Shown piece by piece: positions 4,083 to 46,871 of a stretch of 48,631 nucleotides of DNA. Both the position numbers and the translations under genes were made by a program. The stretch spans positions 1 through 48,631 of the forward strand of contig DATLFM010000094.1 of NCBI GenBank assembly GCA_035541015.1. Direction: 5' to 3'. The stretch is from Candidatus Thermoplasmatota archaeon (GTDB lineage Archaea; Thermoplasmatota; SW-10-69-26; JACQPN01; JAIVGT01). The notes below the pieces were generated by a model, which was not told where the DNA came from, did not search any database, and worked only from the letters and a program-made list of their open reading frames with translations. The number at the start of each line of letters is the position of its first letter. Within the stretch, counting starts at the first letter, position 1.

Positions 4083-4691
4083 ATGAAGGCTTGCCGCAAG
4101 GCGTTGGAACGGAACGATCGCGCCGAGGTCGGGATCGGCACGATGATCGTCTTCATCGCGACGGTCCTCGTCGCCGCCATCGCCGCCTCGGTCCTCATCG
4201 ACACGAGCGGGAAGCTCCAGGAGCGCTCCACGCGCACCGGCCAGGAGACGACCCAGCAGGTGGCAAGCAACCTTCAGGTCAACAGCATCACGGGCAAGCG
4301 CGCCTCCCTGTCCGAGGCGAACATGACCATGATGAACATCACGCTTAGCGTGGCTCCGGGCGCGCAGAGCATCGATCTCTCGCAGCTCATGATCCAGATG
4401 AACACCGGGCAGCGCGTGACCGTGCTCGGCTGGACGAGCGGGACGGAGTCGCAGGGCAAGTTCAACACGACGGCCCTGCGCGACGCCGACGGGTCGTTCA
4501 CGTTCCTCAACCCGGTCATCAACGCGGGGGACCTCGTGGTCGTGAACATCAACCTCACGGCCGACAGCCTCCAGCTCTCGGCCCGCAAGCCCATGGAGAT
4601 CCTGCTCGTGCCCGAGATCGGCACGCACGTGCGCGCCGACTTCATCGCGCCGGCAAGCTACGGCACGAACCTCGTCGTGACGCTCCGGTAG
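4083..4691 (+). CDS. arlB: Archaellin 5
   Basis: A 202-residue archaellin with the conserved core helix ([21 protein letters not shown]) but a leader, [12 protein letters not shown], unlike the MRAN leaders of the others. The outer domain has [20 protein letters not shown] and several sequons (NMT, NIT, NTT, NLT). A TATA-like GTTTATC at 4039-4045 and GGTGA at 4071-4075 precede the ATG. Its different leader and own promoter suggest separate regulation. It is the archaellin nearest to the motor genes. Confidence 0.95.
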
Positions 4692-4704: not shown

Positions 4705-4734
4705 GGGTTTACTGCGCATGTGCGCAGGAAACCC
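4705..4734. promoter_or_regulatory. Palindrome upstream of arlCE (copy 1 of a shared motif)
   Basis: GGGTTT-A-CTGCGCA-TG-TGCGCAG-G-AAACCC is a near-perfect inverted repeat. The inner 22 bases (4709-4730) match the site at 46287-46308 in 20 of 22 positions, differing only in the two central bases. A TATA-like CTTAAAG follows at 4737-4743 and a better one, GTTATATC, at 4811-4818. It could be a regulator binding site for the archaellum motor genes or a terminator for archaellin 5; the second copy favours the first. Confidence 0.55.
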
Positions 4735-4895
4735 GTCTTAAAGCGGCGGTGTTCTCCCGAAAGTCCGGTTTCCCCACCGACGCTTCCGGGAAAACGCCCC
4801 GTCCGTTCCGGTTATATCCCACCGCGCGTCGCAATACGTTCCCGGGTGACGGCGAGCCGACCGGCGGGATCGGCTTGCGCCCCGAGGTGAGACTC

Positions 4896-5948
4896 ATGTT
4901 CGGACGAGGGAAGAAGGAGGAGGGCCTCGCGGCCGCGCCGCCTGCGGCCGCCGCGCCGGCAATCGCCCCCGCGGCTGCGCCCGCGCCGCAGCCTCCCCCC
5001 GCGCCGCCGCCGTCGGCGCCCGCCGTTCCTCCCGCCGCTCCGGTTCCAGGCGCCGCGCAGCCCGAGCCGTGGATGCAGGACCTCTCCGAGAAGATCACGC
5101 TTCTGGCCAAGAGCGTCGACAGCGAGCGGGACACCATGAAGGGCTTCACCGACAAGGTGGGCCGCATGGAGGAGCGCATGAAGTTCCTCCTCAACCTCTC
5201 GGAAGTCCTCTCGATGAACTACAATCCGTTCCTCGGCCACGAGGAGGCCGAGCCCTTCGCCGGGGGCGCCAACATGACGCGCCCGACGCCGGGCAACGGA
5301 AACGGCGTCCGCGAGATCGTGCCGGTCGTGCCCGAAGACGACGCGCCCGTCGCGCTAGCCGTCCCGGGGATCGCCCCGGCTCAACCGGCGCCCGCCGACG
5401 CTGCGGCGCCCGCTCCCGCTCCGCCTTCCCTGGGCCTCGACGCGCTGCTTCCTCCCTCCGACCCGTCGCCCGGCTCCGCCGGGCCGGCCCCCGCGGCGAG
5501 CGCTCTGGCCCCGGCTCTCTCGTTCCCGCCGATGCCCCCGCTCATGAAGGCCCCATCCGTGCCCGTCTCGGGCATGTGGAAGGGCCCGCCGGGCGTGCCC
5601 GTGGCGGAGATGAGCGCGCAGGGATTGCGCGAGTCGTACGTCACGCTGCAATGGTTCGAGTACATGCTCCAGACGGTGGAGCCGCAAGACCTCCACCGCT
5701 TCATCGACTACTACCGCGAGGTGGGCTGGATCGGCGAGGAGGTGCACCAGTGGATGCGCAACCTCGCGCAGGGCATCGCGCCGCGGGACGAGTCCGCGCC
5801 GCCCTCGCGCGTGGTCGATCCCAAGGAGCTCGTCCACATCCACATGACAAGCCTCCGGTTCCTTGACTACCTCGCGGGCAACCGCCTCAACGAGGGCGAG
5901 GTCGTGCAGCTTGAACACGCGATCAAGCGCCTGGCCAAGCGCGGATAG
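4896..5948 (+). CDS. arlCE: Archaellum accessory protein ArlC/E fusion
   Basis: A 350-residue soluble protein of the archaellum motor switch region, thought to link chemotaxis input to the ArlH-ArlI-ArlJ motor. A Pro/Ala-rich segment (residues 10-55) leads to a helical ArlC-like region (about 60-110, SEKITLLAKSVDSERDTMKG), a long Pro/Ala linker, then the ArlD/E domain (about 225-345) with LRESYVTLQWFEYMLQ and FIDYYREVGWIGEEV. Fused C and E parts are typical of Euryarchaeota. ATG 4896 is preferred over an in-frame GTG at 4749 because GTTATATC at 4811-4818 lies between them and GAGGTGA precedes the ATG. Confidence 0.9.
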   Translation: MFGRGKKEEGLAAAPPAAAAPAIAPAAAPAPQPPPAPPPSAPAVPPAAPVPGAAQPEPWMQDLSEKITLLAKSVDSERDTMKGFTDKVGRMEERMKFLLNLSEVLSMNYNPFLGHEEAEPFAGGANMTRPTPGNGNGVREIVPVVPEDDAPVALAVPGIAPAQPAPADAAAPAPAPPSLGLDALLPPSDPSPGSAGPAPAASALAPALSFPPMPPLMKAPSVPVSGMWKGPPGVPVAEMSAQGLRESYVTLQWFEYMLQTVEPQDLHRFIDYYREVGWIGEEVHQWMRNLAQGIAPRDESAPPSRVVDPKELVHIHMTSLRFLDYLAGNRLNEGEVVQLEHAIKRLAKRG

Positions 5949-7603: not shown

Positions 7604-9238
7604 TTGGAGGACGCAGTCGCCCGCAACCCCCACCTCGGGGCCTACCTCGCCTCGCTTGCCGCCCAGGGGAAGCCCCAGCCGGCATGGAAGCCCGTCATGA
7701 CGCGCGACCTCAAGGCCGCCAAGCCCCTCGACTTCCTGTACCCGGTGGGCGACCCCATCTTCGTCCACCTGGTGAAGGACGGCACGAGCCTGTTCCCTCG
7801 CTACTACGCGATCGAGCCCGTGCTTGCGCCCGAGGAGGAATCCACGTTTGAGGCGTTGAAGATGCAGGTGTTCCTGCGCGCGCCCGAGGTGGCCGTCCCC
7901 GACGAGCCGGCGGAGTACAAGGACGCGCTCGGGAAGCTCCTCGACAAGATCCTCCAAGGCGGCGGCGTCACCGTCGGGACGGGCTTCCGCAAGAAGCGCG
8001 TGCCCGTGAACGGCCCGCTTCTCGAGAAGCTTCGGTACGCCCTCTTCCGCGACGTCGTCGAGCACGGGCCCATCGAGCCGGTCATGCGCGACACGTGGAT
8101 CGAGGACATCAACGGCCTTGGCATGCGCAACCTGCACGTCGTGCACAAGATCTTCGGCATGGTGGACACGAACATCAAGTTCCGCGACCTCTCCCACCTC
8201 GACCGCTGGCTCGAGACGATGGGCGAGCGCATGGGGCGACCCATCTCCGACTCGAGCCCCATCGTGGACGGCGCCCTCCCGAACGGCTCCCGCATCAACG
8301 TCGTCTACAGCGATGCGGTGAGCAAGGGCGGCTCGTCGTTCACGATCCGCAAGTTCAGCGACACGCCGCTTCCAGCCACGCAGCTCATCGCGTGGGGCAC
8401 CTGGTCGGCGCGCATCGGCGCGTACCTGTGGCTGTGCCTGGAGAACGGAATGTCCGTCTTCGTGGCCGGCGAGACGGCCTCCGGCAAGACGACCACCTTG
8501 AACGGCATCCTTCCCTTCATCAAGCCGCGGAGCAAGATCCTCACCGCCGAGGACACGCCCGAGGTCCTCCCGCCGCACGCGAACTGGCAGCAGCTCATCA
8601 CCCGCGACCGGGGCAACAAGGAGAGCAGCGTCACCATGTACGATCTCCTCAAGGCCGCGCTGCGCTCCCGCCCCAACTACGTGATCGTGGGCGAGATCCG
8701 AGGCGCCGAGGGCGCCGTCGCCTTCCAGGCCATGCAGACGGGCCACCCCACCATGGCCACGTTCCACGCCTCCTCGGTGGGCAAGCTCATCCAGCGCTTC
8801 AGCAGCGACCCCATCAACGTTCCGCTGCCGTTCATGGACAACCTGAACGTCGTGCTCATCCAGATGGCCGTGTACGTCCACGGCAAGATGCTCCGCCGCG
8901 TGCTCGCCGTGGAGGAGATCGAGGGCTACAGCAAGCGCACGAAGTCCGTCATCACGCGGCAGGTGTTCGCGTGGGACCCCGTGTCCGACAAGTTCCAGTT
9001 CAGCGGGCGCAACAACTCGTACGTCCTCGAGAACCTCGTCGCCGAGAAGATGGGCTTCAAGGACAAGCGCGCGATCTACGCCGAGCTCGACAAGCGCACG
9101 GCGATCCTCGAGGAGTTCGCCCGCCGCAAGGAGTTCGACTACCACCGCATGGCGCGCTTCTTCCAGGAATACGCCGAGAAGGGCGACGCCGTGCTTCCCT
9201 TCCGCATCGAGGAGGCGATGGCATCGCACAGCCGCTGA
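7604..9238 (+). CDS. arlI: Archaellum motor ATPase ArlI, first paralogue
   Basis: A 544-residue secretion-type ATPase that powers filament assembly and rotation. The N-terminal domain (residues 1-200) precedes the ATPase core with DGSRINVVYSD-like sequence, Walker A GETASGKTTT near 289-298, the glutamate-bearing EDTPEV, Walker B VIVGEIRGAEG near 360-370 and the histidine motif HPTMATFHASS. All key residues are present. A TTG start at 7604 is used because no ATG or GTG lies near the N-terminal homology shared with the second copy (EDAVARNPHLGAYLA against LEEALAADPELARYLA). A complete second arlI follows. Confidence 0.92.
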   Translation: MEDAVARNPHLGAYLASLAAQGKPQPAWKPVMTRDLKAAKPLDFLYPVGDPIFVHLVKDGTSLFPRYYAIEPVLAPEEESTFEALKMQVFLRAPEVAVPDEPAEYKDALGKLLDKILQGGGVTVGTGFRKKRVPVNGPLLEKLRYALFRDVVEHGPIEPVMRDTWIEDINGLGMRNLHVVHKIFGMVDTNIKFRDLSHLDRWLETMGERMGRPISDSSPIVDGALPNGSRINVVYSDAVSKGGSSFTIRKFSDTPLPATQLIAWGTWSARIGAYLWLCLENGMSVFVAGETASGKTTTLNGILPFIKPRSKILTAEDTPEVLPPHANWQQLITRDRGNKESSVTMYDLLKAALRSRPNYVIVGEIRGAEGAVAFQAMQTGHPTMATFHASSVGKLIQRFSSDPINVPLPFMDNLNVVLIQMAVYVHGKMLRRVLAVEEIEGYSKRTKSVITRQVFAWDPVSDKFQFSGRNNSYVLENLVAEKMGFKDKRAIYAELDKRTAILEEFARRKEFDYHRMARFFQEYAEKGDAVLPFRIEEAMASHSR

Positions 9239-45608: not shown

Positions 45609-46232
45609 CTACGATTCGGCGCGGACCGTCGGCGAGAGGCTTCGCCAGAGGTACCACGATCCCGCGGAGCGGTACGGGCGCCACGGCTCCGCGATCTCGC
45701 GCATGCGTTCGGGAAGCGGCAGCGCGCGGAGCCCGTAGAGCCGTTGCATGCCTTTGCGCACGCCGTAATCGCCCACGGGCAGGACGTCGGGGCGCCCGAG
45801 GCTGAAAATCAAGAACATCTCCGCCGTCCACCGCCCGATGCCGGGAAGCTCGACGAGCCGCTCGACAACGGCCTCGTCGTCCTCGCGCGAAAGCCGCGAG
45901 AGATCGAGCAAGCCGTCGTCCACCTCGCGCGCGAGCGCCTTCAGGTACGACAGCTTCTGCGGGCTCACGCCGCACGCGCGCAACCGGCGATCGGAGAGGG
46001 CGCGAAGCTCCGCGGCGTCGGGGAACCGCCCCCCGTTTGCCTCGCGCACGCGGCGCACGATGGATTCGGCGGCGGCGCCGGCAAGCTGCTGGTAGAGGAT
46101 GGACTCGGCCAACGCCTGGAAGCGGTTGCGCTCGACCGCGAGACGGACCGGGCCCACCGTGCGGACGACGGGGCGAAGCCGCGCGTCGCGGCGGGACAGG
46201 TGCGCGTGGGCGCGGGGCCAGGGCGAGGACAC
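45609..46232 (-). CDS. DNA-3-methyladenine glycosylase II (AlkA-like HhH-GPD)
   Basis: A 207-residue base-excision enzyme that removes alkylated purines. LAESILYQQLAGAAAESIVRR is the usual start of the HhH-GPD fold, LVELPGIGRWTAEMFLIFSL is the helix-hairpin-helix, and the catalytic Asp is in LPVGDYGVRKG. It lacks the extra N-terminal domain of E. coli AlkA, as most archaeal members do. GTG 46232 is about 27 bases from CAAATAGG (46256-46263, minus-strand TATA), fitting a leaderless start. Confidence 0.9.
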   Translation of the reverse strand: MSSPWPRAHAHLSRRDARLRPVVRTVGPVRLAVERNRFQALAESILYQQLAGAAAESIVRRVREANGGRFPDAAELRALSDRRLRACGVSPQKLSYLKALAREVDDGLLDLSRLSREDDEAVVERLVELPGIGRWTAEMFLIFSLGRPDVLPVGDYGVRKGMQRLYGLRALPLPERMREIAEPWRPYRSAGSWYLWRSLSPTVRAES

Positions 46233-46286
46233 GCGAAGGTCAACGCCGCCGCGCGCAAATAGGTTCCCGCCGGAGCGCCGGAAGTC

Positions 46287-46308
46287 TTACTGCGCAATTG
46301 CGCAGGAA
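46287..46308. promoter_or_regulatory. Palindrome upstream of the HEXXH gene (copy 2 of a shared motif)
   Basis: TTACTGCGCA-AT-TGCGCAGGAA matches 20 of 22 bases of the site upstream of arlCE (4709-4730). It ends 30 bases before the TATA box CTTTATG (46339-46345), a typical place for an activator. It also lies 55 bases from the alkA start. Confidence 0.6.
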
Positions 46309-46370
46309 TCGTGGGAGGCGGCCGGCCGCAAACCCAGTCTTTATGCCGCCGCGGGACCCCATGACCTCGC

Positions 46371-46871
46371 GTGAACGCACGGTTGGCGGCCCGGCTCGAC
46401 CAAGCGGCAAGCCTGGCGGAGATCTTCGAGGTGGTCAAGCGCGCCGCCGCGCAGGTGCTAAAACAAGAGCGCGCGGGGCTCATGCTCGCGCTTGCCGACC
46501 TTGGCAACGCGCCCGGCGGCTTCTTCGGCGGCTTCCACTACGTCGGCAGCAACTACATCGTCATGAACAAGCTGCCGCTGCTTCGAATCCGCGACACGCG
46601 GCCCGAGCTGTACAACGCGTACGCGTTCCACGTGCTCCTGCACGAGTACATCCACACGCTTGGCGTCCTCGACGAGCGGCGAACGCGCGAGCTTGCGCTT
46701 CGCGTCTCGCAGGCGGTCTTTGGTCCCGAGCACGTCGCCACGCGCATCGCCGGCAACATCGAGGAGTTCTTCCCCAATCTCGTCTTCCCGGACGTCACGT
46801 GGCGGCCCGAAGCGTTGCACCTCGAGATCGACAAGAGCTTTGGCATCGGGGACGCAAGCTACATTCAGTAG
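46371..46871 (+). CDS. Predicted metallopeptidase with HEXXH motif (COG4900-like)
   Basis: A 166-residue cytosolic protein. LLHEYIHTLG near residues 88-97 is a zinc-binding HEXXH helix, and a later acidic segment (NIEEFFPNLVFPD) may supply the third ligand. The layout matches the small archaeal predicted metallopeptidases. GTG 46371 lies about 29 bases after CTTTATG, so it is leaderless. The upstream palindrome is shared with the archaellum locus, which suggests a common regulator. The substrate is unknown. Confidence 0.78.
   Translation: MNARLAARLDQAASLAEIFEVVKRAAAQVLKQERAGLMLALADLGNAPGGFFGGFHYVGSNYIVMNKLPLLRIRDTRPELYNAYAFHVLLHEYIHTLGVLDERRTRELALRVSQAVFGPEHVATRIAGNIEEFFPNLVFPDVTWRPEALHLEIDKSFGIGDASYIQ

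Follow-up and report, generated by a model that had tools for sequence, protein, structure and literature searches.

To our knowledge, few sequence-specific landmark systems are known in archaea outside the Sulfolobales. Among the proteins that read such sites in other organisms, Noc is ParB-like and SlmA is TetR-like. Bacterial chromosomes carry about 70 palindromic Noc sites (NBS) or 24–52 SlmA sites (SBS), which make up no single regulon and are depleted near the terminus (PMC4726725). In the Sulfolobales, SegB of the SegAB segregation system has 46–49 short palindromic sites scattered over the archaeal chromosome among diverse neighbours; its 13-bp motif, TCTAGA-S-TCTAGA, is degenerate, occurs in several genera and is intragenic in 83.7% of cases (PMC12284271). 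REP elements are likewise short intergenic palindromes (PMC12306157). Spaced intergenic motifs, described as pairs of 5–8-base words, occur in dozens of copies, many of them convergent and with no functional link; CCTAC-N19-TAGGT of Desulfatibacillum alkenivorans, for example, has 57 copies, 18 of which are convergent (PMC5217627). Here we describe 51 copies of a 22-bp palindrome that lie almost exclusively between genes of a single archaeal genome and may serve its chromosome as a whole.

Two palindromes in the window

The window, i.e. the whole stretch of DNA that was analysed, is contig DATLFM010000094.1 (48,631 nt) of a 2.21 Mb draft genome (114 contigs, 96% complete). It holds just two copies of the palindrome, with the following features around them.

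4083..4691, + strand, archaellin/ArlG-like protein gene, neighbour of Site 1 (NCBIfam flagellin PRK08541, 1.9e-45, under its curated cut-off)
4709..4730, no strand, Site 1, TTACTGCGCATGTGCGCAGGAA, a 10-2-10 inverted repeat read as TTACTGCGCA-TG-TGCGCAGGAA
4737..4744, + strand, TATA-like sequence CTTAAAGC, 6 bp off the Site 1 edge
4749..5948, + strand, ArlCE-type gene, neighbour of Site 1 (Pfam Arch_fla_DE, 3.4e-14); ATG 4897 is its probable true start
45609..46232, − strand, HhH-GPD base-excision repair protein gene, neighbour of Site 2 (Pfam HhH-GPD, 2.2e-17)
46287..46308, no strand, Site 2, TTACTGCGCAATTGCGCAGGAA, a 10-2-10 inverted repeat read as TTACTGCGCA-AT-TGCGCAGGAA
46338..46345, + strand, TATA-like box TCTTTATG, 29 bp off the Site 2 edge
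46371..46871, + strand, gene call for a 166-aa protein with a HEYIH (HExxH) motif, neighbour of Site 2

Site 1 lies between the archaellin/ArlG-like gene and arlCE and begins 17 bp past the stop codon of the gene ending at 4691, and Site 2 lies inside the divergent gap 46233-46370. Both are thus intergenic, at exactly the positions given in the first-pass annotation, and their 20 of 22 identical bases were confirmed, both differences falling in the central pair. That annotation had further described shared outer bases outside the palindrome; the bases are indeed shared, but each arm reads TT[A/C]CTGCGCA, so they belong to the palindrome itself. A second TATA-like sequence, GTTATATC, was found near 4812 by Site 1. 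The 166-aa HEYIH protein had zero matches in Pfam and NCBIfam. The archaellum cluster, with neighbouring genes, includes an ArlI/FlaI-type ATPase gene at window positions 7604-9238 (NCBIfam archaellum motor, 682 bits).

Copy number and sequence anatomy

Genome-wide, there are 51 copies of the full site TT[A/C]CTGCGCA-NN-TGCGCAG[T/G]AA. The 16-bp core CTGCGCANNTGCGCAG had 51 exact matches in the genome, compared to none for the reversed control, and every one of them extends outward to TT[AC]...[TG]AA. Chance is thereby excluded as the source of the two matching palindromes, as the first-pass annotation had argued from the pair. When as many as three mismatches were permitted across the 22 bp, the genome again gave exactly 51 sites, i.e. 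zero copies with one to three mismatches, and the same arms were not found at any other spacer (0–30 bp searched), the spacer always being 2 bp. The site set is thus all-or-none. The palindrome does not continue into the flanks.

Eighteen of the 22 positions are invariant, variation being confined to position 3, its mirror position and the central pair. Among the 102 half-sites, nine of ten arm positions are fixed, position 3 is A in 69 and C in 33 but never G or T, and a T stands directly outside the arm in half of the cases. The central pair is mostly AT (18 copies), TA, GT/AC or CA/TG, while GC, AA/TT and GG/CC were never seen. The A/C choices in the two arms (26 AA, 17 mixed, 8 CC) are compatible with independence (p about 0.09, our own estimate from these counts). 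Because A and C are tolerated at position 3 but the commoner A-to-G transition is not, this position suggests a protein contact, A and C both presenting an amino group in the major groove. Variation limited to position 3, its mirror and the centre, together with arms compatible with independence, is as expected under selection on such a contact.

The sites have an Rsequence of 38.6 bits, compared to about 15.4 bits required to locate 51 sites. LexA, for which 17.4 bits are needed and 20.3 are found, already counts as over-specified, and a fully conserved motif leaves all sites alike, with no differential regulation possible (PMC2680408). The present sites hold more than twice the information needed for locating them, and the case bears on why.

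Placement relative to genes and promoters

Gene calls came from a simple gene finder, with the loci around the sites as training data, and 88% of the sequence was called coding. Fifty of the 51 sites are nevertheless intergenic. A single copy inside a coding region speaks in favour of the first-pass reading, which many such copies would have refuted. Clean gaps hold 46 of the sites, 13 of them between convergent, 12 between divergent and 21 between tandem genes; of the other five, four either lie at the edge of a contig or overlap a gene start or end that is uncertain, and one is truly intragenic. The sites in convergent gaps (at least 13) are often 0–5 bp from both stops, and in several of these gaps both genes are recognised by Pfam. 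At least one start codon is faced by 33 of the 46 clean-gap sites, mostly from 40–95 bp upstream.

On the stop-codon sides, 45% of distances are at most 5 bp (3.5% under the null), and on the start sides 67% are 40–95 bp (20% under the null). A model with uniform placement within each gap and the 39 bp before starts forbidden fully accounts for the start-side count (22 observed, 21.1 expected) and explains the stop-side count in part only (17 observed, 9.8 expected, z 4.2). The last ~35–39 bp before start codons are avoided. Clear TATA-like boxes tend to lie ~30–45 bp before starts, and their distance to the motif varies widely across all sites. A TATA-like box does follow both palindromes of the window, as first noted, but the fixed distance to TATA boxes that further copies were expected to show was not found. 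Site placement is promoter avoidance, with no fixed operator geometry.

The intragenic copy lies in the following gene.

L048:4523-5518, − strand, DUF72 gene with the site at 4998 and a Pfam match on both sides of the motif

Here the motif encodes VTAHVRSK and forms the edge of a lineage-specific, in-frame insertion of ~31 aa and low complexity (TAHVRSKSPSAAASGSASRAPPGSALDAPAG), which is absent in six homologues from relatives and in PDB 1vpq. Copies can therefore arrive within inserted DNA.

Spacing and neighbouring genes

The sites average 43 kb apart, and the closest pair is separated by 6,874 bp. No pair is closer than 6.8 kb, compared to about 6 expected at random (P = 0.00085), and 43 of the 114 contigs are occupied, compared to 38 at random (range 33–43), i.e. 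an even or better spread, under a null in which 26 contigs lacking individual lengths were treated as equal.

Pfam analysis of about 70 proteins adjacent to sites gave no common function; they are largely housekeeping. They include AglB, a TrpE-like protein, aldehyde ferredoxin oxidoreductase, a HerA-like ATPase, a histone-deacetylase fold, ArgRS, HisRS, RibD, Nre, rhomboid, a trypsin/PDZ protease, and ABC and amino-acid transporters, among others. HTH_20-type regulator genes adjoin about eight sites, by our own estimate roughly three times their genome share. Their orientation is mixed, so this excess was not counted as evidence of autoregulation, but it leaves room for a regulatory role. The HTH_20 winged-helix family is large, with 96 domain matches in the genome (e.g. 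L020, L025, L030, L032, L038, L041, L047, L061), and several of its proteins combine an extended N-terminal part with two HTH domains in tandem. Six sites (L028, L039, L040, L044, L054, L059) have tRNA genes no more than about 300 bp away, a mild excess over expectation, and those of L017 and L056 possibly do as well; several of these tRNA genes have GC-rich hairpin repeats around them.

Distribution in other genomes

Not a single copy of the core was found in 40 relatives, among them one from the same family and three from the same order, and none of 389 other genomes sampled from the phylum has a comparable set; the conservation that had been looked for in relatives is thus lacking. Only one other of 390 phylum genomes (G062) contains the 16-bp core, with two matches that both lack the full outer bases. 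Among 84,980 species the 22-bp site had three further matches, one each in unrelated bacterial MAGs, and in IMG/VR it occurred in two viral contigs that share one identical flanking sequence; these matches look like about chance level. A few stretches of orthologous neighbours in relatives G001 and G002 contain no such palindrome, and samples of four relatives (160–580 kb each, the smaller ones giving a weak test) contain no other comparable repeated palindromes. A few neighbours had close matches in the portion of the same-family genome that was sampled, at a protein identity of about 60–80%. As the set is absent there, it is younger than this split, or was lost or altered in that relative.

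Possible functions of the sites

The first-pass annotation had proposed a transcription-factor site that links archaellum expression to one HExxH gene. A real, shared palindrome of the protein-binding type is supported, whereas a transcription switch that joins the archaellum to one other gene is not: there are 51 copies, and the 13 convergent ones have no promoter to regulate. Unrelated neighbours, no fixed distance to TATA boxes or starts, no two sites less than 6.8 kb apart, no graded copies and confinement to one genome likewise make an operator joining arlCE to the protease gene unlikely.

We also consider it unlikely that the sites are operators of one global transcription regulator with a regulon of dozens of genes. 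Such a regulon would suit sites that are almost all intergenic and that mostly face a start, and it could draw on the HTH_20 genes beside about eight sites, on dozens of HTH_20 candidates and on a possible resemblance of the perfect 10-2-10 repeat to the 12-2-12 repeats of SmtB/ArsR-type dimers. However, promoter avoidance alone explains the start distances, and the convergent-gap sites, the neighbours without functional theme, the variable TATA-to-motif distance, the lack of degenerate sites and the 6.8-kb minimum spacing all argue against it. An RNA hairpin or terminator was rejected on account of the A.G mismatch in mixed copies and of sites that also lie between divergent promoters, and so was a bound roadblock as terminator, which by our reasoning would truncate the gene's own message at 0–5 bp past the stop.

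Somewhat on the unlikely side is a palindromic mini-element dispersed over the genome (of REP or MITE type, or the footprint of one) that spread as a 22-bp unit and survived where harmless, the minimum spacing resulting from target immunity. Whole copies without intermediate or decayed forms, their absence from relatives, a placement mostly compatible with harmless insertion and the position of the sole intragenic copy, at the edge of an insertion that relatives' homologues and 1vpq lack, are all consistent with such an element. Against it, there is no target-site duplication and no flank common to all sites, and neither a Y1_Tnp REP transposase nor a serine recombinase was detected. Moreover, four positions vary widely and 18 not at all, unlike either recent copying or old neutral copies, and the excess 0–5 bp from stops is strong even allowing for purging. 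It is very improbable that the sites, with their 2-bp centre, are targets of a site-specific recombinase, an endonuclease or a DNA modification system. The 10-2-10 geometry with its variable central pair recalls the crossover sites of serine recombinases, but no PF00239 protein was detected in the genome, the 18 central-AT copies would recombine among themselves, and a cutting endonuclease would destroy the chromosome.

The observed copy number, invariance, placement, spacing and restriction to this genome lead us to infer one dimeric protein that reads the site and a role at chromosome scale. The explanation that we favour, with our confidence evenly balanced, is that the palindrome is a strict, all-or-none site of a putative homodimeric sequence-specific DNA-binding protein, serving the chromosome as a whole rather than particular genes. 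Each monomer would read a half-site of ~10–11 bp, with a flexible central pair between the two halves, and the about 51 sites would be kept between genes, clear of core promoters. Like Noc, SlmA and SegB sites, they might help to organise or segregate the chromosome or to couple it to division. Against this explanation, the missing partial copies suggest that the sites arrived as complete units, and known chromosome-scale sites tolerate mismatches, unlike this set, those of SegB being mostly intragenic (PMC12284271).

Candidate readers of the site were searched for in the genome. It contains no match to ParB (ParB_N), which also counts against the favoured explanation, as do the two best ParA-type hits, which resemble ArsA/Get3 and Mrp proteins; close to the C15 site, the ParA-type hit looks like ArsA/Get3. 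Serine recombinases (PF00239) were undetected at 96% completeness, and so were REP transposases (Y1_Tnp, RAYT). The cognate protein is thus probably of another family. Given the 10-2-10 geometry, a winged-helix protein, a type abundant in this genome, is a plausible reader; SmtB/ArsR-type winged-helix dimers bind 12-2-12 imperfect inverted repeats.

Tentatively, the set may represent a previously undescribed archaeal chromosome-landmark system, pairing a single dimeric protein with about 50 invariant and spaced sites of 22 bp, which would have arisen in one lineage, perhaps by insertion of units, and would now be under near-absolute selection. The 51 identical spaced sites without weaker copies are an unusually clean handle, and one short oligonucleotide would be enough to capture the protein. 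Two wider questions are touched by the case: the appearance of a strict set of sites within one lineage when intermediates are missing, and chromosome layout and partitioning in archaea.

Comparison with known systems

Neither a constrained distance upstream of the promoters of related genes nor graded site strength, as in the operators of a regulon, was found here, and the genome has no detected resolvase-family protein as would accompany serine-recombinase sites. Short intergenic palindromes are shared with REP elements (PMC12306157), but there are no target-site duplications or degenerate copies as in REP or MITE families, no REP transposase was detected, and mixed copies, with their A.G mismatch, speak against a hairpin role. 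The spaced intergenic motifs (PMC5217627) are alike in their dozens of intergenic copies, many convergent, and differ in sequences and spacers and in being word pairs rather than a 22-bp invariant site. Unlike the SegB motif (PMC12284271), the present site is 22 bp long, invariant, intergenic and restricted to one genome, in which a SegAB pair was not identified. Noc and SlmA sites (PMC4726725) are bacterial, whereas this set comes from an archaeal draft of 114 unordered contigs in which a ParB-family protein was undetected; as no cognate protein was found, we do not claim membership in the SegB, Noc or SlmA families. The likeness to all three lies in number and dispersion: tens of palindromic copies are spread chromosome-wide (51 on 43 of 114 contigs), and their miscellaneous neighbours, with 13 sites in convergent gaps, belong to no single regulon.
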